NCBI RefSeq assembly: GCF_011045195.1
Contig: NZ_CP049199.1
Coordinates: forward strand, 2,728,001-2,792,000
Direction: 5' to 3'
Length of the DNA: 64,000 nt
DNA from: Caulobacter soli
GTDB taxonomy: Bacteria > Pseudomonadota > Alphaproteobacteria > Caulobacterales > Caulobacteraceae
In this document: piece by piece, positions 1,405 to 18,095 of the stretch
Layout: each line of letters starts with the position of its first letter
Numbering within the stretch: the first letter of the stretch is position 1
Translations under genes and position numbers: made by a program
The notes under the pieces: model-generated
Database searches by the model: none
Told to the model about the DNA's origin: nothing
The model's input: only the letters and a program-made list of their open reading frames with translations

Positions 1405-1493
1405 CCTCGCCGTCCCTCAACCGCCCGATCTGTCACCTCACGGACATCTGGCGTGGCTAGACAGTGAACCAGCATCACCTTTCGGAACGTTCC

Positions 1494-3624: not shown

Positions 3625-4947
3625 TCAGGCGGCCGCGTCCTGGACGGCGGCCGCCTCCGGGATGCGAGCGTCGTGCGTTGAACGACGGCGCAGGAAATAG
3701 ACGCCGGCCAGGATCGTGCAGACCGCGCCGACGACGCTGGTCGCATAGGCGCTGGCGATGAAGAACCCCAGCCAGTCCAGCCGGACCATGGCGAAGTTGC
3801 GCCACACCAGCAGGGCGACACTGCCCAGATAGCCTGAAGCGTCGGCCACATAGATCAGGAAGCCCGCCGTGCCGACCCGACCGCTGAAGGCGATCATGCG
3901 ATCGAACAGCATGGCGTTGAATGGCGTGTAGGCCATGTAGAGACCCGCGCCCGTCAGGATCATCCAGGTCAGGGACGCCAGCAGGTGGGCCTGGAAGGCC
4001 AGCGTCGAGAGGCCCAGCAACAGGAAGCCGGCCAGGATCACGCCGTGCATCACCAGCAGGGCCCGAAGGTTGTCGCGCACCAGCATGACCGCGCCCATCA
4101 CGGCCAGGGCGATGACCGCCACGGGAAGCTCACTGGCGGTGAAGACGCCGGAGGCTTCGCCGAAGCCCAGGGCGGTCCAGAGCTCGGCGGCGAAGTTGTC
4201 ACGGAAGTCGCGGAAAGCGGTCAGCAGCACATAGGCCATCACAAGCAGGATGACGCCGGGCGCGTAGGCGGCCAGGAAGGCGCGGCGCTGGGCGCGGTCC
4301 ATCGGCTGGCGGCGCACGCGGGCGGCTTCATCGGCCGGACTGGGCGGCGGCATCTGCACCAGGGCCCAGACCGACACCGCCAGTAGCGGCAGGAAGATCG
4401 CGCCGGTGGCGGCGGGCATCCAGAATGGCGAGACATGGTGGTCGACCATCAGCCACTTGCCGACCGACTTCACCACGCCCGACGACAGGATGAAGCTGGC
4501 GCAGAGGATGGCGCCCAGCACCTCGGACGTGCGTCGCCCTTCCATGAAGCCAAACACCAGTCCCCAGATCATGCCCAGCGGCAGACCGTTCAGGAACAGG
4601 GCCGCGACGTTCCAGGGCGCGGGCACGACCGCGAAGGCCAGCAGGGCCAGCCAGGAAATGCCGATCAGGCCCAGGATCGCCGCGCCGCGCCGCGATGGGG
4701 CGATTTCGGAGATCACCTTGACCCCGATCATCTTGGAGGCGGCGTAACCGGCCACCTGGGCCAGCACCAGGGCGATCTTGTAGTCGACGGCGAAGGTCCA
4801 GCCATCGACCACCCCGAAGGTCGCCGCCGCGAACGGCTTTCGAAAGGCGTACATCGAGAAATAGGCGCAGAAGCCAGCCAGACCCGCGAACAGGGTGAAC
4901 GCCAGTGGATTGGCGCGTTCCAGCCAACGCCGAGGACCTGAAGTCAT
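3625..4947 (-). CDS. DUF5690 family, MFS-like membrane carrier
   Basis: An integral membrane protein of 440 residues with about twelve hydrophobic segments. The N-terminal block FSMYAFRKPFAAATFG is what I recognise as the DUF5690/MFS-like signature. No substrate has been assigned to this family as far as I know. It lies 92 bases downstream of the PhnR-type regulator on the same strand but has its own palindromic operator 24 bases before the start codon, so it is probably a regulon member. Start: ATG at 4947, preceded by AAAGGGCGC. Context suggests import of a phosphonate or of a phospholipase product, or export of a by-product; this is inference. Confidence 0.85.
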   Translation of the reverse strand: MTSGPRRWLERANPLAFTLFAGLAGFCAYFSMYAFRKPFAAATFGVVDGWTFAVDYKIALVLAQVAGYAASKMIGVKVISEIAPSRRGAAILGLIGISWLALLAFAVVPAPWNVAALFLNGLPLGMIWGLVFGFMEGRRTSEVLGAILCASFILSSGVVKSVGKWLMVDHHVSPFWMPAATGAIFLPLLAVSVWALVQMPPPSPADEAARVRRQPMDRAQRRAFLAAYAPGVILLVMAYVLLTAFRDFRDNFAAELWTALGFGEASGVFTASELPVAVIALAVMGAVMLVRDNLRALLVMHGVILAGFLLLGLSTLAFQAHLLASLTWMILTGAGLYMAYTPFNAMLFDRMIAFSGRVGTAGFLIYVADASGYLGSVALLVWRNFAMVRLDWLGFFIASAYATSVVGAVCTILAGVYFLRRRSTHDARIPEAAAVQDAAA

Positions 4948-4970
4948 GAAAGCGCCCTTTAATAGAGCAT

Positions 4971-4986
4971 TTTGGTCTATACCAAA
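4971..4986 (-). promoter_or_regulatory. GntR/PhnR-type operator before the DUF5690 carrier
   Basis: The sequence TTTGGTCTATACCAAA is an inverted repeat with half-site TTTGGT and a 4-base spacer. HutC-type GntR repressors bind palindromes of this TGGT-N4-ACCA form. Read towards the carrier gene it continues as ACCAAAATG, a flank shared with the copies at 5905 and 18084. It ends 24 bases upstream of the carrier start codon, a position suited to repression. Confidence 0.75.
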
Positions 4987-5039
4987 TCCAAGACAACTGG
5001 ATGACGGCCTTGCGGGCCCGTCACGACCCGCCTCATGGC

Positions 5040-5756
5040 CTATCGCACGCGAATGTCGACGCTGACCTTCAAGGCGTCATGACGCCAATATTCACGGTCG
5101 AACTCGACCACGCGCCCCTGGGCGTCATAGCAGGTTCGGATCACGCTGAGGCCCGGCAACCCCGACTTGACCCGAAGGGCCTCGGCGACGTCACGGGTCA
5201 GGGCGCAGGGCTGCATGTCGACCTTGTTGCGCGCGACGCCGATGCCATAGACCGACTTCAGGACGCTGGTGAGCGAACCGTCGAGATCGTGTTCCACGAG
5301 GCCCGGGGCCAAGGACGCGTCGACGACGATGCTCTCGATCAGGACGGCCCGGCCGTCGATCAGGCGCCGGCGGCGGATCCAGTACATCGGCGCTCCGACC
5401 GGACGGGAAAAGATCTGGGCCAGCATACCGTCGCAGGCGATCTCGACCTTGCTGAGCGTCTCGGTCTCCGGCCGCCGCCCTTGGGCTTCGACGTACGACA
5501 TGAAACCTTCCCAGCGGGTCGGATCGTAGACCACGGGCGGCGGCGAGACGTACCAGCCGCTCCGGTCCTTGCGGTAAATGATCCCTTCGGCTTCCAGTTG
5601 GAACAGCGCCTCGCGGATGGTGCCGCGCGCCACCCCGCCGCCGACCTGCATCTGACGCTCGGATGGCAAGCGCTCGCCTGGCTTGATTTCGCCGCCCGCG
5701 ATGCGCGCGGCGATGTCGTCACGCACGCCGATATATTGGAGATCGGGTTGTTGCAT
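5040..5756 (-). CDS. phnR: GntR-family (HutC type, UTRA domain) regulator resembling PhnR
   Basis: The N-terminal winged helix-turn-helix shows the GntR signature (PGERLPSERQM, then RGTIREALFQLEAEGIIYR). A UTRA effector-binding domain follows. The segment KDRSGWYVSPPPVVYDPTRW, the DGRAVLIES and DLDGSLTSV blocks and the ending EFDREYWRHDALKVSVDI resemble the Salmonella-type phosphonate-utilisation regulator PhnR as I remember it. Genes for PhnX, a PhnZ-type oxygenase and an aminophosphonate FAD oxidoreductase nearby support that name. I take the ATG at 5756; a GTG at 5789 would add eleven residues. The divergent interval before the second phospholipase C contains an operator (5905), so autoregulation is likely. 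The effector is unknown. Confidence 0.82.
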   Translation of the reverse strand: MQQPDLQYIGVRDDIAARIAGGEIKPGERLPSERQMQVGGGVARGTIREALFQLEAEGIIYRKDRSGWYVSPPPVVYDPTRWEGFMSYVEAQGRRPETETLSKVEIACDGMLAQIFSRPVGAPMYWIRRRRLIDGRAVLIESIVVDASLAPGLVEHDLDGSLTSVLKSVYGIGVARNKVDMQPCALTRDVAEALRVKSGLPGLSVIRTCYDAQGRVVEFDREYWRHDALKVSVDIRVR

Positions 5757-5904
5757 CGGACGACCTGGCCAGCGGTCGAATCCCGCCACCGCGGGATGAT
5801 GGGAGGCCGCCCCTCCGGGGTCAAGGAACTGGATCAGACCACTGACGAGCCGGCATGAACCGGATCAGGCCGTCACGAAAGTTTCGCCGACAGCTTCCAA
5901 TATC

Positions 5905-5916
5905 TGGTCTATACCA
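5905..5916 (+). promoter_or_regulatory. GntR/PhnR-type operator between phnR and the phospholipase C/HD oxygenase operon
   Basis: TGGTCTATACCA is a perfect TGGT-N4-ACCA palindrome with the same 12-base core as the site before the DUF5690 carrier. It lies 23 bases before the phospholipase C start and about 150 bases before the regulator start, so it could control both divergent transcripts. The downstream flank ACCAAAATTG matches the other copies. Confidence 0.75.
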
Positions 5917-5939
5917 AAATTGTCACTGGGAGATGGGCC

Positions 5940-8078
5940 ATGGCCACCAATCGTCGCGCCTTTTTGCGCACAGCCGCCGGCGGCGTGACCGCCAGCGCGG
6001 CCATGGGCCTGCTGCCGGCCACCGTCCGCAAGGCCATGGCCATCCCCGCGCGCCACCGCACCGGCACAATCATGGACGTCGAGCACGTCGTGATCTTCAT
6101 GCAAGAGAACCGCGCGTTCGACCACTATTTCGGCGCGCTCAACGGCGTGCGGGGTCTGGGCGATCCGCGCCCACAGCGTCTGCCCGGCGGCGCTTCGGTG
6201 TGGCGCCAACCGAGCAAGGAACATCCGGACGGTTTCGTGGCGCCCTTCTACGGCGACTCCAAGATCACCAACGCCTACACCGTTGACGGCTCGGAGCAAG
6301 GCCATCAGGGCGCGACCACCATCGTCAACGGCGGCCGCTACGACCAGTGGGGCCACTCGGGCGAACTGCACAAGCGAATGGTCTACTACAAGGCCTCGGA
6401 CCTGCCGTTCTATCACGCCCTGGCCAGCGCCTTCACGATCTGCGACGCCTATCACTGCTCGACCCTGACCCAGACCTATCCGAACCGCCTGCATCTTTGG
6501 ACGGGCTGCAACGGCGGGGGCAAGGTCGGCGGCGATCCGGAGATGAGCAACTACGGCGAGGACGACACGCCCAGCGCCGATATGGCCGAAGACAAGGTCA
6601 TGGCCAACGGGCCGCACGATTGGACGACCTATGCCGAGCGACTGCAGGCCGCAGGGGTCAGCTGGAAGGTCTATCAAGAGTACGACAATTTCGGCGACAA
6701 CATCCTGTCGGTGTTCAGGCCGTTCCGCCCGTGCGACAAGGACTCGCCGTTGTATGAGCGTGGTCGCTCGTGGGTGTCGGAAGGCAAGACCGGCGCCGAC
6801 CGCACCCGCTCGGACGGCGAACAGCTGGTCGAGGCCTTCCGCGCCGACGTCGCCGCCGACCGCCTGCCGCAGGTGTCGTGGATCGTCACCGCCGCCGACC
6901 TGTCCGAACACCCCCAGGCCGAGCCCTCGAAGGGCGAACACGTCTGCGCCGAGCTGATCAAAGCGCTGGTCGACAACCCCGAGGTGTTCGCCAAGACCGT
7001 GTTCATCGTCAATTACGACGAGGCCGGCGGCTTCTACGACCACATGCAGCCGCCCATGCCGCCGCTGACGCCCGAACAGGGCTGGAGTTCGGTCTCGGTC
7101 GCGGGCGAGGCCAAGGACTATGGCGACGACACCAAGCTGGCCAATACGGGCGCCCATCCGCTGGGCCTGGGCATCCGCGTGCCCGCGCTCATCGTCTCGC
7201 CGTGGAGCCGGGGCGGCTTCGTCTGCTCGGAGGTGTTCGACCACACCTCGACCCTGCGATTCCTGGAGAAGCGCTTCGGGGTGCGCGAGGACAATATCAG
7301 CGACTGGCGCCGGACGGTCTGCGGCGACCTGACCTCGGCCTTCGACTTCGCCACGCCCAACCAGGATTGGACGGCCCTGACCCTGCCGCAGACCGCCGAC
7401 TACATGGCGCGCGTGACGCGGTCCAAGGCCGCCCCGACCCTGAAGATCCCCGAAAAGCAGACGGCGTCATCTCAGGAAGGGCCTCAACGTGGCGCGCGTC
7501 CCCTGCCCTACGCGCTGTCGGCCGACGCCCGGGTTCGCGACGGCGGCCTCTGGATCGACCTCGTCAACAAGGGTCGGACGGGCGCGGTGTTCCAGGTGTT
7601 CGACAACACCGACCGCGACGGGCCCTGGCGCTTCACCCTGGCGGCCGGCGAGACCTACGCGGCCGGGCACTGGAACCACACGGGTCGCGCGCCGGGGCGC
7701 TACGACCTGACAGTCCACGGCCCGAACGGCTTCTATCGGCGGTTCGCCGGCGACACGTCACGGCCCCAGCCCAGCGTGTCGGTCGCCGCCGACGCCCGCT
7801 CCCGCCTGGTCGTAAGCCTGACCGGCGTCGCCGCGACTTCGGTCACGGCGCACATGAACGAGGCCTATCCGCTGGCCGAAGGCGAAGCGCGCCAGACCTT
7901 GACCCTGGCCCCCAACGGCGTCGTCCGCTCGGTCTGGGACCTGCGCGGCAGTGACCATTGGTACGACCTGACCCTGACCTTGGCGGACGATCCCTCGTTC
8001 ACCCAGCGCCTGGCCGGTCACTTCGAAACCGGCCGCGCCAGCCGCACCGACCCCGGAATCGGCCGAATGCGCCTGTGA
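5940..8078 (+). CDS. Tat-exported phospholipase C (second copy), head of the phospholipase/HD-oxygenase operon
   Basis: A protein of 712 residues with the same architecture as the copy at 1494. It has a Tat signal (NRRAFLR, residues 4-10), the MQENRAFDHYFG metal motif near residues 55-66, the active-site segment CDAYHCSTLTQTYPNR, NYDEAGGFYDHM as the second metal motif, and two C-terminal DUF756-type repeats starting near RPLPYALSADAR. Start: ATG at 5940 with GGGAG seven bases upstream. Sitting behind a PhnR-type operator and 49 bases before a PhnZ-type phosphonate oxygenase is unusual for this family. It suggests a lipid with a phosphono head group, such as aminoethylphosphonate, as a natural substrate. 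That is inference; ordinary phosphodiester lipids remain possible. Confidence 0.92.
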   Translation: MATNRRAFLRTAAGGVTASAAMGLLPATVRKAMAIPARHRTGTIMDVEHVVIFMQENRAFDHYFGALNGVRGLGDPRPQRLPGGASVWRQPSKEHPDGFVAPFYGDSKITNAYTVDGSEQGHQGATTIVNGGRYDQWGHSGELHKRMVYYKASDLPFYHALASAFTICDAYHCSTLTQTYPNRLHLWTGCNGGGKVGGDPEMSNYGEDDTPSADMAEDKVMANGPHDWTTYAERLQAAGVSWKVYQEYDNFGDNILSVFRPFRPCDKDSPLYERGRSWVSEGKTGADRTRSDGEQLVEAFRADVAADRLPQVSWIVTAADLSEHPQAEPSKGEHVCAELIKALVDNPEVFAKTVFIVNYDEAGGFYDHMQPPMPPLTPEQGWSSVSVAGEAKDYGDDTKLANTGAHPLGLGIRVPALIVSPWSRGGFVCSEVFDHTSTLRFLEKRFGVREDNISDWRRTVCGDLTSAFDFATPNQDWTALTLPQTADYMARVTRSKAAPTLKIPEKQTASSQEGPQRGARPLPYALSADARVRDGGLWIDLVNKGRTGAVFQVFDNTDRDGPWRFTLAAGETYAAGHWNHTGRAPGRYDLTVHGPNGFYRRFAGDTSRPQPSVSVAADARSRLVVSLTGVAATSVTAHMNEAYPLAEGEARQTLTLAPNGVVRSVWDLRGSDHWYDLTLTLADDPSFTQRLAGHFETGRASRTDPGIGRMRL

Positions 8079-8127
8079 GTCAGACGCCAAATCCTTTTTA
8101 CAGTTCAAAACCTTGTACGGATATTTG

Positions 8128-8703
8128 ATGACCTCTCGCCCTACGGCCGATGCTTTCGTGGCCGAGCTTGCCGATCTCTTCGCTCAATTGGGCAACCTTC
8201 ACTACGGGGAGGACGTCAGCCAACTGGAACATGCGTTGCAGACGGCGCACCACGCCAAGGTCGACGGCGCGCCGCCGGCCCTGGTCGCCGCCGCCCTGCT
8301 GCACGACGTCGGCCACATGATGCAGAAGGCCGGCGAAAACGCCGCCGACCGGGGCATCGACACCCGCCATGAGCACATCAGCGCCGGCTATCTGGCGCGA
8401 GCGTTCGGTCCCGAAGTGACCGAACCGATCCGCCTGCACGTGGCGGCCAAGCGGTACCGAGTGGCTGTCGACCCGGCTTATCACGAGCGTCTCAGCAAGG
8501 CGTCACTGCAGAGCCTGGCCTTGCAAGGCGGTCCGATGAGTCCGGACGAGGTCGAGACGTTCCTGGCCGATCCGGCGGCCCAAGCCGCGCTGCGGCTGCG
8601 CGGCTATGACGAGGCCGGCAAAGCGCCCGAAGCCGAGGTGGCCGGCTTCGAAACCTATCACGATCTTCTTCGCGACCTGATCGACCGCGCGCGCCGAGCT
8701 TAG
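8128..8703 (+). CDS. phnZ: PhnZ/TmpB-type HD-domain diiron oxygenase (phosphonate C-P cleavage)
   Basis: A protein of 191 residues, the family size. PhnZ-type enzymes use a mixed-valent diiron centre and oxygen to split alpha-hydroxyphosphonates into phosphate and a carboxylate. All six expected ligands are visible: H35, H59-D60 (LLHDVGH), H81 (RHEHISAGYL), H104 (LHVAAKRY) and D161 (GYDEAGK). The QGGPM block of PhnZ is also present. The lid motif reads H25-Y-G-E28, whereas characterised PhnZ has Tyr-Ile-Gly-Glu, so the lid tyrosine is replaced by His or shifted by one. I chose the ATG at 8128; a TTG at 8113 would add five residues. Very probably co-transcribed with the phospholipase C. The symbol marks the family; the substrate may differ. 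Confidence 0.88.
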   Translation: MTSRPTADAFVAELADLFAQLGNLHYGEDVSQLEHALQTAHHAKVDGAPPALVAAALLHDVGHMMQKAGENAADRGIDTRHEHISAGYLARAFGPEVTEPIRLHVAAKRYRVAVDPAYHERLSKASLQSLALQGGPMSPDEVETFLADPAAQAALRLRGYDEAGKAPEAEVAGFETYHDLLRDLIDRARRA

Positions 8704-8726
8704 CCCCGCTAAGTCGACGATCGCGA

Positions 8727-8762
8727 CCCCGCGTCCTCCACGGCCGAGGACGCGGGGTTTTT
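8727..8762 (+). terminator. Strong rho-independent terminator after the HD oxygenase gene
   Basis: An 11-base-pair perfect stem (CCCCGCGTCCT at 8727 with AGGACGCGGGG at 8747) and a 9-base loop are followed by TTTTTC. It closes the phospholipase/HD-oxygenase operon exactly where the convergent phnX gene ends and could act in both directions. Confidence 0.9.
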
Positions 8763-9575
8763 CTAGCGCGGCGCCTCGCCACACGCGATCCGCGACGCGA
8801 TATCCGCCAGCACGGGCCCGAGGTCGGCGACGCTCTCGACCACATAGTGCGCGCCGGCGTCGCGCAGCGCCTTGGCCGACGCCTCGATCCGCGCGACACG
8901 CTCGGCGGCGGGCAGGATCGCCAGCACGCCCTGCTCCAGGCCCACGCCGTTGCCCGAGGCCGACAGGCCGACGGTCCAGGCGCCGACCTCCAGCCCCTCG
9001 CCGATGCCGACGACCGCGTCGTCAACCTTGACGCAGGCCCGCGCCGGCCAGGCGCCGAGCTCGACCAGGGCCTTCCACATCATCAACGGCGAGGGCCGCC
9101 CCTGCGCGGTCTCACCGGCGCAGACCACCACGTCGGGCGCGTAGCCCTGGCTTGCGGCCAGCGGCAGGATGTCGGCCATCATCGGACGCGTATAGCCCGT
9201 GGTGGAGCCGATCTTCACGCCCTGCGCGCGCAGATCGGCGGCCAGCTCGGCCGCGCCAGGGATCAGCTTGGCGCAATCGCGGGCGGCCGCGCGCATCTTC
9301 GGCTCGACGGCGTCATGCAGGCGATCGACATCGGTCTCGGTCGACACCACGCCGTGAAGTTCTGTCCAAAGGCCGGCGATGCGGGGCATGGCGAGCAGCG
9401 CCCTCACGTGATCGCGTTTGGCCCGTCCCATGTCGGCCCGCGCCTCGGTTTCGGAAATCTCGATTCCGGTCGCGGCGAACACGTCGCGCAACGCCATGAC
9501 GGGCGCGCGGCAGCCGAAGTCGATCATCGTGCCGGCCCAGTCGAAGACGACGGCCTGGATAGGACTTCCGGTCAT
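8763..9575 (-). CDS. phnX: Phosphonoacetaldehyde hydrolase (phosphonatase)
   Basis: A HAD-superfamily protein of 270 residues. It hydrolyses phosphonoacetaldehyde to acetaldehyde and phosphate through a Schiff base. The nucleophile motif FDWAGTMID puts Asp at residue 12. The cap domain has MGRAKRD with Lys at residue 53, the Schiff-base lysine position of Bacillus cereus phosphonatase. Later motifs STTGYTR and VKVDDAVVGIGEG supply the Mg and phosphate sites. Its ATG overlaps the TGA of the FAD oxidoreductase (ATGA), so the two are translationally coupled. It is the last gene of the chain and ends at the terminator at 8727. Confidence 0.95.
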   Translation of the reverse strand: MTGSPIQAVVFDWAGTMIDFGCRAPVMALRDVFAATGIEISETEARADMGRAKRDHVRALLAMPRIAGLWTELHGVVSTETDVDRLHDAVEPKMRAAARDCAKLIPGAAELAADLRAQGVKIGSTTGYTRPMMADILPLAASQGYAPDVVVCAGETAQGRPSPLMMWKALVELGAWPARACVKVDDAVVGIGEGLEVGAWTVGLSASGNGVGLEQGVLAILPAAERVARIEASAKALRDAGAHYVVESVADLGPVLADIASRIACGEAPR

Positions 9576-10714
9576 GCGATGGCTCCCTGGGGCAGGTCGT
9601 AGAGGTCGGCGATCACGTCCTCGGCCAGGCCGAAGGCGGTCGAGGCGCCGGTGCCGCTGGTCACGGTCACCAGGCGCACATCCGGCAAGGGCGCTTCGAC
9701 CAGGCTGTGACCAGCAGCCGAGGCGTAGGTTCCCGTCCAGCGCTCCAGCACCGGCGGCGGCGTCTGGCCGAACACCTGGACGAATTCGTCCAGGATCAGA
9801 GCATCGACATCGTCGCGGGCGAAGGGGTCTGGCGTGGCGGCGTAGTGATGGCTGTCGCCCACCACCAGCGAGCCGTCGGCGCTTTGCACCACGATCAAGT
9901 GAACGCCGTGCTCCAGGTGCGCGCCCTGCTCCGCCTCCAGCCGCGCGCGCAGAGCTGCCGCCTGCGGCAGGTCGGCATAGCCCAGATAGCGGACCAGGCC
10001 GAGATCGGACATCACCGGCGCGGGCAGGCGCCAGCCCGGATCGGCCAGGCGCAGCATCTGCAGTTTGCAGCGCGTGACTTCGGCGCGGGCGAAACGGTCC
10101 GGAAACAGGGTGACGAGATCGTCGCCCGGGCACACCACGATGGCGTCGGCGCGAATGAGGCCGGCCGAGGTTTCCAAGCGCCCGGTCTCGACGCCGTGCA
10201 CGGCCACGCCGCGCAGGAAGACGACCCCATGAGCGGCCGCCAGCCAGGCGGCCAGTCGGGGGATGGCGGTGCGGGACTCGACACGCAGATCGACTTGGCT
10301 GGTCAAGCCGCCCAGCACCCCGCCCTGCCCCGGCAACCGATCGCCAAGATCGTCGGCGTCGCGCCAGGCGCAACCTTCGGCCATCTCGGTCTCGAGGAAC
10401 GCCTCCAGCACCGCCTTGGCCTCGGGCCGGCGAGCGATCATTGTCAGGCCGCGTTGCAGAACCTCGATCCCGGCGGGTCCGGCGATCTCGTTCCAGACCC
10501 GCGCCGACCGACGGGCGCGCCGCCACACCTCGCCCCGCGCCTGACCCGTGACGGTCACGAAGCCGAAATTGCGCACCGAGGCGCCGTTGGCCTGGGCGTC
10601 GCGGTCGATGATCACGACACGCTTGCCAAGGCGCGCGGCGGCCAAGGCGTGGGCCAGGCCCACGACGCCGGCCCCGACCACGGCGAGATCGAAGTGCTCT
10701 TCCAAATTCGTCAT
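9572..10714 (-). CDS. FAD-dependent oxidoreductase of the phosphonate-associated family (TIGR03364/PbfC-like)
   Basis: A DAO-type flavoprotein of 380 residues. The dinucleotide-binding motif VVGAGVVGLAHA lies near residues 11-22 and is followed by GASVRNFGFV, which I recognise from the TIGR03364 group found in phosphonate operons. Members of this group have been reported to oxidise 2-aminoethylphosphonate or its N-methyl form to phosphonoacetaldehyde. That product is exactly what the next gene, phnX, consumes. The ATG at 10714 overlaps the preceding stop and its own stop overlaps phnX, both as ATGA. I reject a longer frame beginning at 10912, because the extra part is Arg-rich and lies inside the neighbouring gene. 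Confidence 0.88.
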   Translation of the reverse strand: MTNLEEHFDLAVVGAGVVGLAHALAAARLGKRVVIIDRDAQANGASVRNFGFVTVTGQARGEVWRRARRSARVWNEIAGPAGIEVLQRGLTMIARRPEAKAVLEAFLETEMAEGCAWRDADDLGDRLPGQGGVLGGLTSQVDLRVESRTAIPRLAAWLAAAHGVVFLRGVAVHGVETGRLETSAGLIRADAIVVCPGDDLVTLFPDRFARAEVTRCKLQMLRLADPGWRLPAPVMSDLGLVRYLGYADLPQAAALRARLEAEQGAHLEHGVHLIVVQSADGSLVVGDSHHYAATPDPFARDDVDALILDEFVQVFGQTPPPVLERWTGTYASAAGHSLVEAPLPDVRLVTVTSGTGASTAFGLAEDVIADLYDLPQGAIA

Positions 10715-11679
10715 CCTTGCCCGGAGGTTCCCGGCATGACTTCGTCCACGACCAGGTGCTGCAACACGCGCTTCTCCAGCACCAACAGCGCACTGACATC
10801 GTTGGTGCGCATGACCAGTCCGGCGGCCAGCGGCCTGGCGGCCTCGTGCACGGCGCCGGCCAGACGCAGGAATTCCGATCGACCTTGCCCGCCGACGCCA
10901 TGCAGCGCGCAAAGCTGGCGCCAGTCGAGCACGAAGCTGTCCAGCAGCAGGCTGAACCGCGCGGCGCGCGCCCTGGCCTCCGCGCTATCCGTGGCGGTCG
11001 TCAGCTCCGCGCGCAGATCGTCGAGCAGCCACTGCGCTTCGGCGGCGGGCATCACGGGTGAGCGCTGGGCGTTCTCGGTGAGCAATTCCGGGCTGATCTT
11101 CGGGTCCCAGGCCAGCGTTCGCCACTGCTCGCGCGGCGGAGCCCGCCCACGGACGAACTGCCAGAAGGCCGCCGTGCCGGTGGTGTCCGCGACCAGATGG
11201 ATGCGCTCGGCGTCGGCCCTGTTCTCCACATGGTGCCGGCGCCAGTTGTCGAAGATCCAGGCCTCCCCCGCGGCCATGTGCACGGACTGCCCGTCGCAAT
11301 GGAAGCGCACCGCCGGTTGGGTGAAGACCGGGATGTGCAGCCGAACTCGCGTATGCCAGTGGTAGTTGATGTCGGCATGCTCGGGCACGTCAGCGCCCGG
11401 CGCCAGACGCATCAGCCGCGAGCGGCTCCAGACCACGCCGAAGCCCGCGAGCACCTGGTGCAGATACGGCATGCCCGCCAACCAGCGCGTCGCCAACATC
11501 TGCCCGTGGACGGCGTCCGTTTCGGCCCCCTCGGCGCTGATCAACCGCGCCGCGCTATTGCCGGCCAGACTGTCGGGGTGCGACACCCAGGCCTCGGCCG
11601 GCAAAGCGGCCACCTCGGCCTGCAGGCGCGCCACGTCGAACAGCACGGGCAGCTGGAAGAAAGGTTGCGACAGTCGCAT
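10711..11679 (-). CDS. Aspartyl/asparaginyl beta-hydroxylase-like 2-oxoglutarate/Fe(II) oxygenase
   Basis: A 322-residue protein. The first half carries the double-stranded beta-helix iron site: HAD near residue 100 (VPEHADINYHWHTRVRLHIP), a distal His in RRHHVEN near residue 149, and the RIHLV segment that usually holds the 2-oxoglutarate-binding Arg. The ~130-residue C-terminal extension is helical and unfamiliar. The ATG at 11679 starts two bases after the upstream stop, and the stop overlaps the FAD gene. The family name refers to protein hydroxylation in animals; bacterial members are mostly uncharacterised. Its coupling to phosphonate genes makes hydroxylation of a phosphonate possible, but unproved. 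Confidence 0.8.
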   Translation of the reverse strand: MRLSQPFFQLPVLFDVARLQAEVAALPAEAWVSHPDSLAGNSAARLISAEGAETDAVHGQMLATRWLAGMPYLHQVLAGFGVVWSRSRLMRLAPGADVPEHADINYHWHTRVRLHIPVFTQPAVRFHCDGQSVHMAAGEAWIFDNWRRHHVENRADAERIHLVADTTGTAAFWQFVRGRAPPREQWRTLAWDPKISPELLTENAQRSPVMPAAEAQWLLDDLRAELTTATDSAEARARAARFSLLLDSFVLDWRQLCALHGVGGQGRSEFLRLAGAVHEAARPLAAGLVMRTNDVSALLVLEKRVLQHLVVDEVMPGTSGQG

Positions 11680-11681
11680 GG

Positions 11682-13583
11682 TCAGGCCCTGTAGCCGGTC
11701 AAGGCGTCGCCCAGCGTATCGCGCAAGGCGCCGAGCCAAGGCGCGTAGTGTCGCCACTGGGTGAGACCCTCCCGACCGAGGGGCTGGCGCACCTGTTCGG
11801 AACTAGGCGTGCGCACGCTGCGTCGGGTTTCGTGGAAGGCCAGGCAGGCCGGCTCGAAGGCCAGTCCGCAACGGTCCAGCATGCGCCGCACGCCGCCTTT
11901 CAGATCCTCGACGACGTCTTCGTATGACACCCTTAGCACCCGCCCCGGCAGCACATCATCCCAGTGCCGCATCAGGTCGAGATAGGCGCGATAGTGGCGG
12001 GCGACGTCCTCGACGCCGTAGGTGAATTCCTGGTTGGTCGTGCCGAACAACTGCTTGAGATTGCTGAAGCAGCACCCCATCGGCTCACGCCGCACGTCGA
12101 TGATCGTCGCCCGGGGCAGGATCAGCTGGATCAGGCCGATGTGCCAGAAATTGTTCGGCATCTTGTCGACGAAGAACGGCCGGCCCCACCTGCGATAGGT
12201 GCGGGTTTCGGCCAGGAAACGCTCGCCCAGCAAGCGAGCCTGCTCGGCCGTCAGGCTCAGCAAGGTCTCGGGGTCCGACGGCAGGCCGCAGCCCGGATCG
12301 CGACCGCAGAGCTCGCCGGCGTAGCGGCCGATCTCGGTCAGCTCCTGCGTGCCCTCCACCTGGGAATGGGAGGCCAGAATCTGCTCGATCAGCGTCGAGC
12401 CCGAACGCGGCAGCCCCAGGACGAAGATCGGCGCTGGGTCGGCCACACCCCAGTCGGCGCGCGCGGCGAAGAACTCAGCGGTGAAGACCTGTTTCAGTCG
12501 CTGAACGCAGGCTTCCGCGACTTCCGAGCGATAGCGGCTGGAGGCGCGCCGTACGGCATTGCCGCGCTCGTAGTATCGCCACGAGAGCTCATAGTCGCCC
12601 TGGTCCTCCAGCGCCTTGCCCAAGGCGAAACACAGATAGACACGGTCCATGTCCTGGAGGTCGGGGCGAGCTTCCGCGACGCGCATGCGCGCGATCTCAT
12701 CGTCGTTGAAGCGATAGGTCTTGAGGTTGGCGAGGCTGAACCAGGCCACGCCGTTGTCCTGCCGGGCCACCAGGGAGGCGCGATAGTCGGCGATGGCTTC
12801 CACTTGCCGGCCGGTGATCTTCAAGGCGTTCGCCCGCCACAGGCGCAGGTCGGCGACTTCCGTTTCCGACTGAGTTTGGCCGGCTAGCAGCCGCTCATAG
12901 AGATCGATCACCGGCTCGTGGTCACCCAGGCCGATGCAGGCCGCGCCGTACTGCTTGAGGTATTGGCGGTTGTCCGGGTCGTGCGCGAGCAAGCGCTCGG
13001 CCTCCTCTCGCGCCTGGCGGTGCTTTTGCCGTTGCAAGAGCAGCATGGCGTAGTCGAGACGGGCGGCGTGGTAGTCCGGCGCGCGATCGAGCACCGCTTC
13101 CAGCACCGCTTCGGCCTCGTCGAGATCGCCACGTTCCTGGCGGATGCGCGCCAGCAGGCGCAGGGCGCCCACGTTGCCGCCGTCCCTACTTAGATAGTCC
13201 CGGATGACCTCCTCCGCCGGCTGTAAATCGCCGTCGGCGAACAGACTGTTGGCCACCACCACCTCGGAAGGCAGCTGCCTCAACACGGCCAGGTGTTGCG
13301 CCGCCGCGACCGCCTGGGCGGTGTCCCCGACCATGCGATGAAGCTGCTCCAGCATGTCCCAGCTAGCCGGCAGAGTCGGATTGAGGCGCACCGCCTCCCG
13401 CAGCGCCGCGACGGCCGCCTCCGCCTCTCCCAGCAGGACATGACAGTGGCCGCGCTCCTGGTGGAGCTGGCTGAAACGGGGATGTAGCGCTTCCAGCCGC
13501 GCTAGCGCCGCTAGCGCTTCCTGGACGCGTTGGTCGACGCGCAGGTCCCTGGCCTCCCGCAGCAAGGCGTCGCGATCGCTCAT
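11682..13583 (-). CDS. TPR-repeat protein with C-terminal sulfotransferase domain
   Basis: A protein of 633 residues. Roughly the first 350 are tetratricopeptide repeats (for example ALLRLARIRQERGDLDEAEAV-like helices). From about residue 385 a sulfotransferase fold follows: the PAPS 5'-phosphosulfate loop VLGLPRSGSTLIEQILASH and the 3'-phosphate motif DVRREPMGCCFSNLKQLF. I chose the ATG at 13583, which overlaps the upstream stop (ATGA). Such TPR-sulfotransferases are often found beside TonB receptors and Asp/Asn-hydroxylase-like genes in Caulobacter and sphingomonads, with unknown acceptors. Here the set is fused into a phosphonate operon. Confidence 0.85.
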   Translation of the reverse strand: MSDRDALLREARDLRVDQRVQEALAALARLEALHPRFSQLHQERGHCHVLLGEAEAAVAALREAVRLNPTLPASWDMLEQLHRMVGDTAQAVAAAQHLAVLRQLPSEVVVANSLFADGDLQPAEEVIRDYLSRDGGNVGALRLLARIRQERGDLDEAEAVLEAVLDRAPDYHAARLDYAMLLLQRQKHRQAREEAERLLAHDPDNRQYLKQYGAACIGLGDHEPVIDLYERLLAGQTQSETEVADLRLWRANALKITGRQVEAIADYRASLVARQDNGVAWFSLANLKTYRFNDDEIARMRVAEARPDLQDMDRVYLCFALGKALEDQGDYELSWRYYERGNAVRRASSRYRSEVAEACVQRLKQVFTAEFFAARADWGVADPAPIFVLGLPRSGSTLIEQILASHSQVEGTQELTEIGRYAGELCGRDPGCGLPSDPETLLSLTAEQARLLGERFLAETRTYRRWGRPFFVDKMPNNFWHIGLIQLILPRATIIDVRREPMGCCFSNLKQLFGTTNQEFTYGVEDVARHYRAYLDLMRHWDDVLPGRVLRVSYEDVVEDLKGGVRRMLDRCGLAFEPACLAFHETRRSVRTPSSEQVRQPLGREGLTQWRHYAPWLGALRDTLGDALTGYRA

Positions 13584-14209
13584 CGCGCCGCGCCAGCCAG
13601 CAGAAAGGGCTCCAGCCAGTCCGGCTCCGGCTGATCGGCGTCGTAGTATTCGAAGATCAGGTGCACGCGGTCGATGTCGCCGCCATTGCGCACCCAGTGC
13701 GGGCCGAGATTGTTGACCTCCACCGCCTCGCCGGGCGGAAAATAGCGCTCCTCGCCACCGAAGAAGGACACCACCCCGGGGTTGGTCGTCAGCGGCACAT
13801 GGATCTTGTGCGGCCACTTCGCCGCCGGATTGGCGTCGACGTGCGGGTGGATCACCCCGCCAGACGGCATCCTGGCCAGCATCACTCGTGGGAACACCCC
13901 ACGCGCGTAGCAGTAGTCGCGGACGGCCTGCGCCAGCACCGGTTCCAGCAAGCCGCGCCATTGGGGCCAGGCCGCGCGATCGTGCGAACCGCGCCAGTCG
14001 CGGGGACTGTCGATGAAGCGAAAGACGATGTGGCGCGTCCCGCCCAGCGCCTCGAATCTGTTGGGTTTGCCGGCGTCCTCCGCCTCCCAGACCGCCTCGG
14101 GGATCGCCAGCACGGCTGTCCGCAACGCGGTGATGTCGACCGAACCGAGCTCGCGGACGGTCGTGGTCTTGCGGGGATTGCCGGCGGGTTCGAGGGGGTT
14201 TGCGCTCAT
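13580..14209 (-). CDS. Aspartyl/asparaginyl beta-hydroxylase-like 2-oxoglutarate oxygenase (second, short)
   Basis: A protein of 209 residues, essentially one oxygenase domain. The iron motif HPHVD lies near residue 120 within GGVIHPHVDANPAAKWPHKI, and the distal His in LGPHWVRNGG is near residue 170. The following DRVHLIFEYYD matches the 2-oxoglutarate arm. The first ~20 residues are polar and probably disordered. Both ends overlap neighbours by ATGA. It is clearly related in fold to the oxygenase at 10711 but lacks its C-terminal extension. Substrate unknown; it could modify a protein, a peptide or a small phosphonate. Confidence 0.8.
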   Translation of the reverse strand: MSANPLEPAGNPRKTTTVRELGSVDITALRTAVLAIPEAVWEAEDAGKPNRFEALGGTRHIVFRFIDSPRDWRGSHDRAAWPQWRGLLEPVLAQAVRDYCYARGVFPRVMLARMPSGGVIHPHVDANPAAKWPHKIHVPLTTNPGVVSFFGGEERYFPPGEAVEVNNLGPHWVRNGGDIDRVHLIFEYYDADQPEPDWLEPFLLAGAAR

Positions 14210-14844
14210 CCCAAGCCTTCGAAGGTGTAGCCGAACAGGTCCAGGTCCTGGGCGTAGCGCGTGGCGACGCCGTCGATCAGGGCCTGGTCGTAGTAGCGAC
14301 GATAGTCGCCGCGTTGGGTGCCGTTGACGCGGTCGAGCGAGCGGGAGGGAATACCGATGCGCGCGCAGATCGCATCATACGACGCCTGCATGCCCTCGAC
14401 ATGACCGATCCCATCGACCAGCAGGGTCTTGCCGTCTCCATCCACCAGCAGAGACGCTTGCGGCTGAAAAAGGATGTGGTGCTCCGGCGGCTCTCCGAAC
14501 AGGAAATGGCGCATCACCTCGCGCGGCCGTTGCTGGAAGTCGTCGCCGCCCCGCAGCATGAAGGCGCAGTAGGACACGAAGCGGTCGAACGGATTGCGCA
14601 CGAAGGCGAACTTGTAATAGCCGCCGAAGGCTTCCTCGCCGAGGTAAGGACGCACCTGCCGCAGAGACAGGTGACCGTGCCGGATCGCCGCCAGATCCGC
14701 CCACGGGAAGCGCTTGTCGACGAACAGCCCCACCTGCTCGATGTCCCCGTCGCCCAGCTGCTCACGCAGGGCCTGGCGCACGGAATGGGTGCCGGTCTTG
14801 GGCACCGCGGCGAAGATGAAACGGTGGCTGTGAGAAATGATCAT
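14206..14844 (-). CDS. Sulfotransferase-family protein
   Basis: About 212 residues. It begins with the PAPS-binding loop FAAVPKTGTHSVRQAL and has the 3'-phosphate-binding segment KFAFVRNPFDRFVSYC near the middle, both typical of family-2-like bacterial sulfotransferases. I prefer the ATG at 14844 (CTGGAAAC just upstream) over a GTG at 14856. Only about 20 bases separate the start from the hairpin behind the TonB receptor gene, leaving almost no room for a separate promoter. Its stop overlaps the next start. The acceptor is unknown. Confidence 0.82.
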   Translation of the reverse strand: MIISHSHRFIFAAVPKTGTHSVRQALREQLGDGDIEQVGLFVDKRFPWADLAAIRHGHLSLRQVRPYLGEEAFGGYYKFAFVRNPFDRFVSYCAFMLRGGDDFQQRPREVMRHFLFGEPPEHHILFQPQASLLVDGDGKTLLVDGIGHVEGMQASYDAICARIGIPSRSLDRVNGTQRGDYRRYYDQALIDGVATRYAQDLDLFGYTFEGLG

Positions 14845-14859
14845 GTTTCCAGACACACG

Positions 14860-14896
14860 GAAAAGGCGCCCCTCCTCCGCGGGAAGAAGGGCGCCT
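14860..14896 (-). terminator. Weak terminator or processing hairpin between the TonB receptor and sulfotransferase genes
   Basis: A perfect 8-base-pair stem (AGGCGCCC/GGGCGCCT) is followed on the minus strand by only four T residues. It sits 15 bases after the receptor stop and about 20 bases before the next gene. A partial terminator or mRNA-stabilising hairpin fits better than a complete stop, because no separate downstream promoter has space. Confidence 0.7.
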
Positions 14897-14910
14897 GACC
14901 TGGGATCGTC

Positions 14911-17697
14911 TTAGAACTTGTAGCTGAGACCCATCATGTAGGTCCGGCCGCTCTGGGTCTGGTTGTAGAGGTACCGGTTCTGACCCCAGAACTGCGTGTC
15001 CTTCTGGTTGGTCAGATTGATCCCATCCAGCGAGATCTGGAGCTTCTCAGTGATGTTGTAGAACGCCGCGGCGTCCACATAGGTGGACCCTTCGAAGCCT
15101 CGCGTATCGGCGCTCATGACGTCGTCGCTATGGCCGGTATACCAGCGCGTGCGGTGGTTCAGCGAGCCCCGCAGGCCCCACCGATCGGTCTCGTAGTAGA
15201 GCGAGATATTGTAGCTGGTCTTGGAGATGCCGGTAAGCGCCTCGTCCGCGTCCACATAGGTGTAGTTCGCGACGGCGCCCAGGTTGTCGAACGGCGCCGG
15301 CAGGAACGAGAACTGGGTCTGGGCGGCCAGTTCGACGCCGGTCAGCTTGGTCTTGCCCTCGACGTTCACCGGCATCGAGAATTCGGTGACGATGGTGTTG
15401 GCCGTCGCGCCCGGGATGGTGCCGAACGGGACGCCCGTCTGGCTGAAGGGCACATCGTGGAGGGTTTCCGAGCCGATGAAGTTCTTGATGTTCTTCTGGA
15501 ACACGCTGGCCGACAGCAGGCCGACCTTGCCGAAATAGTATTCCAGCGAGAAGTCCAGCGTGGTGTCCTTGTAGGGCTTGAGGTCCGGATTGCCGCGCGA
15601 GGCGGTGATCTCGCCGTTGTCCGGATCCTTGAACGCGCTGCCCTCGGCGGCCATCGAACCCAGTCCCGGGCGGTTGACGTTCTGCGTGGCCGCGAAGCGC
15701 ACCAGCACCTCCGGCGTCAGCTCCAGCACCGTGTTCAGGGCGGGTAGCACGCCGTCATAACTGCCCTTCACGTCGGTCGTGCCCAGATAGGCGTAGCTGT
15801 CGCCCTGGATCCAGCCGGTGCTGTGGGTGTCGGTCTGGTAGCCGCGCAGGCCGATGTTGCCGCGGAAGCGCTTGCCGAACAGCTGGCTGTCCCAGTCCAC
15901 CTGCGCATACTCGGAAATGGTCTTTTCGGTGGTGTTGTAGACGTTCTCGATGTCCTGCAGCGCCCCGCCCGTGCCGTCGGTGTTGGGGCCGAACCGGTGG
16001 TACTCGTGGTACTTCGCGAAGCCCTTGGGGTAGTCGCCGACCAGCCATGAACCGAAGCTGTTGGTGAACACCGAGGTGATGTCGCCAACGGCTGTGCCCT
16101 GGGTCTTGGACTTGGTTCCGTTGACGTTGTCGTCATAGAACACGTCCATGCCGCCCTGCGCGAAGCGGTGATAGGCCACCCCGGCGCGCAGCGTGAACAC
16201 GTCGGTCAGCTTGTAGTGGAGGTTCAGCACGCCCTCCTTCAGCTCCGACTGGTTGTTGAAGCCGCGGTAGTAGAACGAATCCATGGCGTAGTTGGCCGGG
16301 TTGGTCGGATCCCAGCCCGGATATTGGAACGAAGCCGACTGGCCGTCGGCGCCGTAGTTGGCGATCAGGTTGCCCTTGGCGCGCATGTAGAACTTGTCGT
16401 CGTAGGGCGTCTTGTAGGTCGACTTCTCATAGCCGACGTGCCCGTCGATCGACAGGCGATCGGTCGCGTCCCATTTGCCGGTCAGGGCCAGCTGATTGAA
16501 GCGGTTCTTGTTCAGCGAGCGGCGATGCTCGCTGCCGAAGGTCGTGCCAGTGACGTCGGTCTTGGTGACGTAGTTGTCTCTGTCCCAAGCCAGATCGTTG
16601 ATGACCGAGCCTTTCTGGAAGGCGGCCGGCCAGACACCGCCGGCCGGAGCGTCGAACGCGATGGAGCCGTCCGAGTTGAGGGGGCGCGTGGCCAGGTGCA
16701 TTTCGTCGCGGTGGGTGGTGAACTGGCCGTACAGCCCATCCAGCGTCAGCAGCAGGTTGTCGACCGGCTTCCACTGCAGCGCGGTCGTCACGCCCAGGCG
16801 TTCCATCTTCGAGTCCCAGGACGACAGGCGGTTGCCGTCGGCGAAGACCAGGTCCCCGGAGAGGAACTTGGTTCGCTGCGCCGCGCTCAGGTGCGAGATG
16901 TCCAGGCCGTCGTCGACCATCTCCTGCAACCGATCAGCATCGGGCTGGTCGTAGTTGTAGGTGTTGTGGCCCTGCTCGGTGGTCTCGCGCTTGGAATAGG
17001 CGATCGAGACCGCCGCGCCGAACCTGTTGTCCCAGTTGTAGCTGTACAGCGCGGCGACGCGCGGCTGTTCGTCCTTGGTGTATTGGTTGGTGCCCAGCTT
17101 GAGAGACACCGCCCCCTTGGCGCCCGGCGCGTAGTCGAAGGGCTTGCCGGTGAACAGCCCGACCGTGCCGGCCATGCCGCCCTCGTTCTGGGCCGCCTGG
17201 AAGGTCTTCTCGACCTCGACCTTCGAGAATAGTTCCGAGGCGAAGATGTTGAAATCGAAGGCGCGGTCGCGCGAACGCTGGCCGCGGCTGTCCTGCGCGG
17301 AGTCGACGTTGCCCAGCACTTCCATGCCGTTCAGCTGCACGCGGGCGAAATCGGGACCCAGGCCCCGCAGCGAGATGCGCCGGCCCTCGCCCGCCTCGCG
17401 GGTGATCTGCACGCCCGGCAGGCGCTGCAGCGATTCAGCCAGGTTCAGTTCCGGGAACTTCGCCATGTCCTCGGCGACGATCGCGTCCTTCTGGATGACC
17501 GAATCCCGCTTGATGTCGCGCGCGTCGCTTAGCGACTTGCGGTAGCCGGTGACGACGATTTCGTCGACCGCGTCGCCAGAGGCCTGCTGGGCCAGGGCCA
17601 CCGACGAATGAGCGCCGACGACCAGCACCGAAACGGTGGCCAGCAAAAGGTTCTTGAGGTTCGGGCGCACGGCCCGAACGGAATATTGCTTCGACAT
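14911..17697 (-). CDS. TonB-dependent receptor (Xanthomonas/Caulobacter type)
   Basis: An outer-membrane receptor of 928 residues. The signal peptide (LLLATVSVLVVGAHSSVALAQ) is followed by a TonB box DEIVVTGYR, the plug domain (LAESLQRLPGVQITREAGEG and RGLGPDFARVQLNGMEVLG) and a long barrel ending in the canonical aromatic strand MGLSYKF. I chose the ATG at 17697, with AGGGGAA upstream; a longer frame to 17757 only adds non-signal sequence. An operator-like palindrome lies 20 bases upstream. The phosphonate genes downstream suggest a ligand related to phosphonates or phospholipase products. Confidence 0.93.
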   Translation of the reverse strand: MSKQYSVRAVRPNLKNLLLATVSVLVVGAHSSVALAQQASGDAVDEIVVTGYRKSLSDARDIKRDSVIQKDAIVAEDMAKFPELNLAESLQRLPGVQITREAGEGRRISLRGLGPDFARVQLNGMEVLGNVDSAQDSRGQRSRDRAFDFNIFASELFSKVEVEKTFQAAQNEGGMAGTVGLFTGKPFDYAPGAKGAVSLKLGTNQYTKDEQPRVAALYSYNWDNRFGAAVSIAYSKRETTEQGHNTYNYDQPDADRLQEMVDDGLDISHLSAAQRTKFLSGDLVFADGNRLSSWDSKMERLGVTTALQWKPVDNLLLTLDGLYGQFTTHRDEMHLATRPLNSDGSIAFDAPAGGVWPAAFQKGSVINDLAWDRDNYVTKTDVTGTTFGSEHRRSLNKNRFNQLALTGKWDATDRLSIDGHVGYEKSTYKTPYDDKFYMRAKGNLIANYGADGQSASFQYPGWDPTNPANYAMDSFYYRGFNNQSELKEGVLNLHYKLTDVFTLRAGVAYHRFAQGGMDVFYDDNVNGTKSKTQGTAVGDITSVFTNSFGSWLVGDYPKGFAKYHEYHRFGPNTDGTGGALQDIENVYNTTEKTISEYAQVDWDSQLFGKRFRGNIGLRGYQTDTHSTGWIQGDSYAYLGTTDVKGSYDGVLPALNTVLELTPEVLVRFAATQNVNRPGLGSMAAEGSAFKDPDNGEITASRGNPDLKPYKDTTLDFSLEYYFGKVGLLSASVFQKNIKNFIGSETLHDVPFSQTGVPFGTIPGATANTIVTEFSMPVNVEGKTKLTGVELAAQTQFSFLPAPFDNLGAVANYTYVDADEALTGISKTSYNISLYYETDRWGLRGSLNHRTRWYTGHSDDVMSADTRGFEGSTYVDAAAFYNITEKLQISLDGINLTNQKDTQFWGQNRYLYNQTQSGRTYMMGLSYKF

Positions 17698-17717
17698 GAG
17701 TGTTCCCCTGCCCCAAC

Positions 17718-17729
17718 TGGTATGGACCA
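17718..17729 (-). promoter_or_regulatory. PhnR-type operator before the TonB receptor
   Basis: TGGTATGGACCA keeps both half-sites of the TGGT-N4-ACCA palindrome and differs from the 4973 and 5905 cores only in the spacer. It lies between a possible -10-like GCTTTAAG (about 17738-17745 on the minus strand) and the ribosome-binding site. A repressor bound here would block initiation of the receptor and the chain behind it. Confidence 0.6.
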
Positions 17730-18083: not shown

Positions 18084-18095
18084 TGGACTATACCA
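18084..18095 (+). promoter_or_regulatory. Degenerate PhnR-type operator without an obvious target gene
   Basis: TGGACTATACCA differs from the 5905 operator by one base. The match extends beyond the palindrome: TATCTGGwCTATACCAAAAT is shared with the phospholipase C promoter region (w marks the single difference). In that orientation the site points towards guaA, where no matching plus-strand gene remains. Confidence 0.5.

Follow-up and report, generated by a model that had tools for sequence, protein, structure and literature searches.

Why should genes for phospholipases C (PLCs) stand among genes for breaking carbon-phosphorus (C-P) bonds, behind the same short palindromes? The question is raised by a locus of Caulobacter soli at positions 3625-17729 of a 64,000-nt stretch of contig NZ_CP049199.1 (2,728,001-2,792,000), hereafter the window. 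The locus encodes a PhnR-like regulator, a DUF5690 carrier, a phospholipase C (PLC2), enzymes of phosphonate degradation and a TonB-dependent receptor (TonB2); the gene of a second phospholipase C, PLC1, lies just outside it, after a TonB receptor gene truncated by the window start. The presence of one regulator's sites before both phospholipase-type and C-P-breaking enzymes suggests that aminophosphonate head groups are freed from lipids or other esters for their phosphorus. We give a probability of about one half to the reading that the locus would be a HutC-type, substrate-responsive regulon taking phosphorus from ester-bound aminophosphonates, most likely phosphonolipids. Sequence comparison establishes the gene identities, the predicted operator set and the recurrent and convergent linkage of PLC and phosphonate genes. 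An initial annotation had proposed such a regulon, and every gene it named was recovered in place by matches to Pfam or NCBIfam models, although it passed over four genes between the TonB receptor and the FAD gene. Its three palindromes, at 4973 and 5905 (both TGGTCTATACCA) and at 17718 (TGGTATGGACCA), are real.

The regulator combines a GntR helix-turn-helix with a UTRA domain and has predicted sites of the GTMTAKAC type at 4973 and 5905, which places it in the HutC/UTRA group, whose reported consensus is GTMTAKAC (PMC4494728). The phnR model TIGR03337 was the best of 23 NCBIfam models, with a score under its cut-off (Table 1), and the host genome contains three UTRA matches, this regulator included. 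The third site, at 17718, departs from the strict HutC consensus, its centre being ATGG, not MTAK. The loose pattern TGGT-N4-ACCA occurs six times in the window, against 0.52 expected, and 198 times in the 5.68-Mb host genome, against 33 for a reversed-pattern control; with 198 genomic sites it proves nothing and was rejected as stand-alone evidence. The exact sequence TGGTCTATACCA has two copies in the genome, both at this locus; a further 11 genomic places differ from it by one base, the 17718 site among them.

We compared positions 1-22000 of the window with 30 loci that encode a relative of its regulator (31 stretches), from Caulobacter, Phenylobacterium, Brevundimonas, Asticcacaulis, Erythrobacter, Novosphingobium, further Caulobacterales and Sphingomonadales, and one Pseudomonas. 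The strict form TGGT[AC]TA[TG]ACCA, in agreement with the published HutC consensus GTMTAKAC (PMC4494728), occurs 56 times in these stretches; 20 rounds of dinucleotide shuffling gave no strict site, and six control motifs gave none. In 55 of the 56 cases a gene of the regulon set starts at most 400 bp downstream, the sole exception being in the Pseudomonas locus. The operator lies 24-26 bp before the DUF5690 start in 21 of 21 cases and 19-27 bp before PLC2 in 15 of 19 stretches, the remaining distances being 11 bp in one (extrapolated start) and 38-47 bp in three Asticcacaulis. In 13 of the 14 stretches that show the region upstream of TonB2, the window among them, TGGT-N4-ACCA stands 17-25 bp before the gene; L031 is the exception. 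The centres of these sites are off-consensus (four CCAT, two TCAT, two ATGG, and others). That the palindromes and the neighbourhood are coincidental, with PLC and phosphonate genes as unrelated neighbours, would suit the abundance of TGGT-N4-ACCA in the genome, yet the contrast with the shuffles, the conserved spacing to gene starts and the recurrence of the set in rearranged orders across Caulobacterales and Sphingomonadales make this exceedingly improbable. The genes almost certainly form one regulon, and the comparative evidence speaks strongly for PhnR-type control and for phosphonate catabolism. The PhnR control of the initial annotation thus holds as PhnR-type regulation with a comparative operator set, while the name PhnR itself comes from a match below the cut-off; regulator and HD oxygenase are labelled '-like' because both score under their models' cut-offs.

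Some further sites were noted. The sequence TGGACTATACCA at 18084-18095, one mismatch from the operator, lies about 360 bp beyond the 17718 site and has no clear target gene. A search for Pho boxes gave three matches, each with three mismatches to the consensus, against 2.27 expected, which lends no support to Pho control; those at 4990 and 17751 are close to operators. The Pseudomonas locus (L043; PhnR 43% identical) was set aside as an unrelated context among the nine open reading frames (ORFs) scanned there.

The FAD oxidase belongs with PbfD, as it exceeds the TIGR03364 cut-off and its gene overlaps the neighbouring phnX by 4 bp; PhnX likewise exceeds the cut-off of its own model, TIGR01422 (Table 1). 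PbfD enzymes are reported to oxidize 2-aminoethylphosphonate (AEP) and N-methyl-AEP to phosphonoacetaldehyde, PbfD1 being annotated as TIGR03364 (PMC10590968). No PhnW over the cut-off was found in the host genome (best 95.7 of 400.8 bits), as expected, on that account, where PbfD makes phosphonoacetaldehyde (PMC10590968). The order of a TIGR03364 oxidase directly followed by phnX, with no PhnW over cut-off, resembles the PbfD-PhnX route for AEP described there, in a paper whose main text, unlike the present locus, has no mention of phospholipase, DUF5690 or Caulobacter (PMC10590968). The HD oxygenase misses the TIGR03276 cut-off by 4.4 bits and has TmpB (6npa, E 5.6e-32) and PhnZ (4mlm, E 1.3e-25) as its nearest PDB entries, a kinship which makes a hydroxylated aminophosphonate its likely substrate. 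Unlike in the PhnY/PhnZ and TmpA/TmpB routes, no PhyH-type hydroxylase partner is present in the locus; the genome has its two PF05721 matches elsewhere, at 1.88 and 3.74 Mb. Near its N-terminus the protein also has a Tyr and a Glu spaced by one residue fewer than in the oxygenases of these routes; in PhnZ, they are the substrate-gating pair. A second type of PhnZ-like gene (51% identical to that of the window) occurs at L027:3-663, where a strict operator of its own precedes it by 95 bp.

Hydrolases and phosphonate genes recur together. At least one PLC or related phosphodiesterase is encoded in 27 of the 30 loci, and FAD, PhnX or PhnZ in 25; by gene, the counts are 20 for FAD, 21 for PhnX, 25 for PhnZ, 24 for DUF5690, 18 for PLC2 and 7 for PLC1-type enzymes. 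The loci free of hydrolases are L017 (a 6.9-kb contig), L024 and L043, and those free of phosphonate enzymes are L018 and L020, whose contigs end within the locus, together with L034, L037 and L043. Six hydrolase lineages are found across the loci, five of them with a member behind an operator. Loci that lack PLC2 have other hydrolases at operators. PI-PLC-C1 enzymes stand there in L030, L034 and L041 and, alongside PLC2, in L037, and NPP-like PF01663 phosphodiesterases with CHB_HEX and PA14 domains do so in L030-L033, L036 and L041 (Pfam was run on the PI-PLCs of L030 and L034 and the NPP-like proteins of L030 and L036; other loci were assigned by tblastn). L034 additionally has, at operators, a beta-propeller protein that matches PF04185 weakly, and a PLC1-like enzyme. 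In a 46-row tree, the phosphocholine-specific-type PLCs (PC-PLCs) of the loci occupy three separate places: the PLC2 clade (23 rows, 21 of them from PhnR loci), PLC1 (window, L021, L026 and L039; no operator, and in the last three also beside PhnR) and PLC1-like (L030, L031, L032 and L034). The tree omits the partial L018 sequence, contains two identical pairs (L028/L086 and L022/L084), and includes 22 of the 25 PLC places from the order survey described below, namely 20 fetched and the two window PLCs; one place each in G102, G106 and G146 is missing. That unrelated hydrolases were recruited into the same regulon speaks for a need for the ester-cleaving step, and not for one hitch-hiking gene.

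We also surveyed 150 genomes drawn evenly from the order. The regulator was present in 4 and a PC-PLC in 18, and in all four regulator genomes the regulator has a PLC2-clade PC-PLC as its immediate neighbour (for the mere presence of a PC-PLC, Fisher p 1.5e-4, uncorrected for phylogeny). A TIGR03364 oxidase was found in 15 genomes, over the cut-off in 14, and a PC-PLC accompanied it in 8 of the 15, against 10 of the 135 others (p 3.4e-5). The PLC2 clade was also sought outside the order: across the class, a PC-PLC at E<=1e-60 was present in 9 of 385 genomes, with 47% as the best identity to PLC2, the window's own PLC2 aside; a scan of the named genomes found a PLC2 relative (69%) in Novosphingobium L037.

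The association outlasts the regulator. A PLC2-clade enzyme from another family (L088, context L090) occurs where no PhnR was detected at E<=1e-40 and no TGGT-N4-ACCA site in 19.7 kb. This context matches the models of PhnX (339 bits, cut-off 220), TIGR03364 (358, cut-off 285) and PbfA (618, cut-off 525) and also encodes a LysR regulator, a metallophosphoesterase, DUF5690 (47%) and a PhnZ-like protein (28%); PbfA, LysR and DUF5690 are within 10 kb of the PLC. L134, from the same genus, has the same core of PLC2, FAD, PhnX, PhnZ-like and DUF5690 genes and no PhnR. In a third context, a PLC2-clade PLC (L087; L091:8360-11234) has a PhnZ-like gene (46%) and a TonB receptor gene as neighbours. These three contexts indicate that PLC2 follows aminophosphonate genes under different regulators. 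The link is not due to chance, since it is found repeatedly, involves hydrolases that are not homologous and persists where the regulator has been replaced, and the early proposal that a PLC shares a regulon with phosphonate genes is borne out as a recurrent and convergent association. The PLC of L091 is the second PLC2-clade PLC of genome G042, which also has a PhnR locus.

Which head group would PLC2 release? PLC1 and PLC2 are the only proteins of the host genome to pass the TIGR03396 cut-off (Table 1), both at most 5 kb from the regulator, and both N-termini are of the RR type by eye, from which export was judged. Phosphocholine-specific PLCs of TIGR03396 are of the PlcH type; like them, PLC2 has PF04185 and PF05506, a score over the cut-off and common invariant residues. 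The 23 PLC2 rows were compared with 22 other PC-PLCs (L081 omitted), and a residue was listed when agreement reached at least 95% in the former and at least 90% in the latter. Residues invariant in the 22 others are changed in at least 95% of the PLC2 rows: in PLC1 numbering, H132Q, A140I, W141V, Q169Y, I248V, A328E, W345F, N357A and D358G. The PLC2 rows also have a common insertion near residues 278-293. The N357-D358 pair, Ala-Gly in the PLC2 clade, sits in a conserved DE..G..DH loop. Unlike the phosphocholine-specific type, the PLC2 loop (DEAGGFYDH) is nearer to those of NPC4 (8hav, DEHGGFYDH) and 8k3g (DETGGFYDH), other structures having DENDGFFDH (9gy2, 8yk5) or DEGDGFYDH (9gye). These loop and residue changes hint at another head-group range.

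For DUF5690, the AlphaFold2 model (pLDDT 83.5) had G6PT/SLC37A4 as its top Foldseek match and GlpT at rank 11; in sequence, its similarity to SLC37A4 reaches E 0.011 only. Antiporters of the GlpT/SLC37 group have paired substrate arginines. The gene lies at most 2 kb from FAD-PhnX in 6 of 10 loci away from PhnR, and we propose that DUF5690 is an aminophosphonate importer. A GlpT-like AEP permease, AepP, is already known (PMC8316502). DUF5690, a major facilitator carrier, may be of the organophosphate:phosphate antiporter type like AepP (PMC8316502) and differs in being a separate Pfam family whose transport role is predicted. We found no paper naming DUF5690 in the open-access literature searched.

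From these data we infer export, PLC substrate, transport roles, effector and direction of control, as follows. Exported PLC2 would cut the lipid-O-P bond, a step that in other species may fall to PI-PLC, the NPP-like phosphodiesterase or other PC-PLC lineages, and would free AEP, its N-methyl form or its 1-hydroxy form. TonB2 may carry the product, or a larger fragment, across the outer membrane and the GlpT/SLC37-like DUF5690 the product across the inner membrane. The PbfD-type oxidase would then convert AEP or N-methyl-AEP to phosphonoacetaldehyde, which PhnX would split into acetaldehyde and phosphate, and the PhnZ-type oxygenase could handle hydroxylated head groups. A phosphonate or a breakdown product would release the repressor. 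That the hydrolases free an esterified aminophosphonate is, in our judgement, fairly probable, and the chances that the ester is a lipid are about even; it is plausible that the PLCs act on phosphonolipids, and we infer these as the target, rather than ordinary phospholipid or phosphonoglycan. With somewhat less than even confidence, we suggest that PLC2 and its kin may be phosphonolipases, PLCs adapted to aminophosphonate head groups, that perform the initial step of a dedicated, substrate-sensing regulon for phosphonolipid breakdown, that DUF5690 may be a new family importing aminophosphonates and that unrelated hydrolases may have been repeatedly recruited into this step.

The PLCs and phosphodiesterases could instead attack ordinary phospholipids (phosphatidylcholine, phosphatidylethanolamine and phosphatidylinositol) that the same prey or detritus contain. 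The regulon would then join phosphonate use to a general scavenging of membrane phosphorus and would be cued by a phosphonate or by a phospho-head group, for instance phosphoethanolamine. We consider this unlikely, though the less so because PLC1 and PLC2 score as phosphocholine-specific, because L034 and L037 have PLCs without local phosphonate enzymes, and because PI-PLC-C1 enzymes, whose usual substrate is phosphatidylinositol, stand at the operator. In Pseudomonas putida, moreover, PhoBR is reported to control lipid-head-group phosphodiesterases as well as phosphonate pathways (PMC9311074); unlike here, that co-regulation answers to phosphate stress and not to a dedicated regulator, and Pho-box-like matches in the window are not above chance. 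PLC2-clade enzymes, furthermore, accompany aminophosphonate genes even under another regulator, adjoin the regulator in all four PhnR genomes of the survey and have lost residues that do not vary among the other PC-PLCs compared. Less probable still is an ester-bound phosphonate in phosphonoglycans or glycolipids, for example AEP on protist or bacterial surface glycans, with hydrolases that would detach AEP from sugars or cut the glycan off its lipid anchor. The NPP-like phosphodiesterase with CHB_HEX and PA14 behind an operator would suit such a substrate, a TonB receptor suits a large ligand, PI-PLC could, by family, cut inositol-lipid anchors, and AEP has been reported as a linker on inositol-phosphorylceramide glycans (PMC11765627). 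The commonest enzyme is nevertheless of the PC-PLC type (PLC2 and PLC1-type, with the locus counts given above), and no glycoside hydrolase was found among the scanned proteins, a scan that covered part of the ORFs of the 30 loci.

Several observations weigh against a phosphonolipid regulon. PLC2 passes the phosphocholine-specific cut-off, PLC1 has no operator of its own, the PhnR and PhnZ matches both fall under curated cut-offs, and two sulfotransferase-like and two hydroxylase-like genes have no place in the model. The 30 loci are mostly close kin, so that their counts are not independent; of the PhnR genomes in the survey, four in all, at least two match species of the named loci (PLC2 identical to L022 and L028). 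L017 and L024 have phosphonate genes without a PLC; conversely, L034 and L037 have regulator and PLCs but no FAD, PhnX, PhnZ or DUF5690 in 20.7 kb. Among the TIGR03364 genomes of the survey, 7 of 15 lack a PC-PLC, and of the remaining 8 only 5 have the PLC at a distance of about 2 kb or less from the oxidase (G000, G008, G042, G102 and G106). In G057, PhnR and PLC2 are adjacent, with FAD-PhnX-DUF5690 on another contig (L133) that has no strict operator in 19.9 kb. For the NPP-like genes, four of the six sites have a one-mismatch centre and are held in common with phnR.

HutC-type repressors such as PhnF, DasR and NagR likewise combine a UTRA regulator with a GTMTAKAC palindrome (PMC4494728); here, unlike there, the sites precede phospholipase-type hydrolases together with C-P bond cleavage genes. 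Phosphonates are reported to be built into lipids and glycans (PMC8316502), and the catabolic pathways in the literature, as far as the passages cited here go, start from free aminophosphonate. The main text of one review nowhere contains the word 'phospholipase' (PMC10574752). The initial annotation knew of no described phospholipase C in a Phn regulon, and we also found no description of one in the open-access literature, by titles and abstract openings among the matches listed. A regulon coupling phospholipase-type enzymes to C-P cleavage would provide freshwater and soil bacteria with an initial step of phosphonate turnover. It would also assign functions that can be tested to DUF5690 and to a PLC clade now named by default after phosphocholine.

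Table 1. Genes and predicted operator sites in and beside the locus (window positions).
Feature	Position	Strand	Evidence or sequence
PLC1, PC-PLC-type phospholipase C	1464-3608	+	PF04185/PF05506; TIGR03396 884 bits (cut-off 580)
DUF5690 major facilitator superfamily carrier	3625-4947	-	PF18943 E 2e-160
Predicted PhnR operator, 26 bp before DUF5690 start	4973-4984	.	TGGTCTATACCA
PhnR-like GntR/HutC (UTRA) regulator	5040-5756	-	PF00392, PF07702; TIGR03337 241.5 bits (cut-off 296.75)
Predicted PhnR operator, 24 bp before PLC2 and 149 bp before the divergent regulator gene	5905-5916	.	TGGTCTATACCA
PLC2, phospholipase C	5940-8078	+	TIGR03396 770.5 bits (cut-off 580)
PhnZ/TmpB-type HD-domain oxygenase-like protein	8128-8703	+	TIGR03276 210.2 bits (cut-off 214.6)
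PhnX phosphonoacetaldehyde hydrolase	8763-9575	-	TIGR01422 323.5 bits (cut-off 220); PDB 3iru, 1rql, others
PbfD-type FAD oxidase	9572-10714	-	TIGR03364 403.5 bits (cut-off 285)
AspHa, Asp/Asn beta-hydroxylase-like	10711-11679	-	PF05118 E 2.5e-14; 4-bp overlap with FAD gene
TPR-sulfotransferase-like	11682 to about 13600	-	PF13469 and TPR models; ORF open to 13961
AspHb, second Asp/Asn beta-hydroxylase-like	13580-14209	-	PF05118 genome match G000:C1:2741646-2741900
ST2, sulfotransferase-family	about 14206-14844	-	PF03567 E 1.7e-11
TonB2, TonB-dependent receptor	14911-17697	-	TIGR01782 631 bits
Operator variant, 21 bp before TonB2 start	17718-17729	.	TGGTATGGACCA

A gap of 66 bp separates TonB2 from ST2, and the other genes through PhnX nearly touch or overlap on the same strand. 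Given the common strand and the short gaps or overlaps, TonB2-ST2-AspHb-TPR-sulfotransferase-AspHa-FAD-PhnX is probably a single seven-gene operon behind the 17718 site, with TonB2 first and phnX last. The real start of the TPR-sulfotransferase is probably near 13.6 kb, since its ORF overlaps the AspHb frame. Genes of the cassette at 10711-14844 recur in the 30 loci (TPR-sulfotransferase in 18, AspHa in 17 and ST2 in 17), as does TonB2 (17, matches under 50% identity excluded); locus counts for AspHb are unreliable, as the overlapping TPR-sulfotransferase reference masks it. Two of the three PF05118 matches of the host genome are in the cassette. AspHa was considered as a substitute for PhnY, which its distribution relative to PhnR and PhnZ does not support. 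Relatives of AspHa (E<=1e-20) occur in 16 of the 150 order genomes, two with PhnR (100 and 74% identity) and 14 without (36-47%), and PhnZ is found without an AspHa homologue in the stretch in Brevundimonas (L022, L023, L025 and L042) and Asticcacaulis (L035, L038 and L040).

Upstream of the window lie a PI-PLC-C1/PAP2 protein, TonB receptors and sigma-factor/FecR-type regulators, followed by the TonB receptor and PLC1; no TGGT-N4-ACCA site occurs in these 20 kb. The upstream PI-PLC-C1/PAP2 gene is a fusion of the two domains (G000:C1:2720103-2721749; L089:103-1749); it shares about 61% identity with the PI-PLC that stands at an operator in L030 and belongs to the same island, with no operator.

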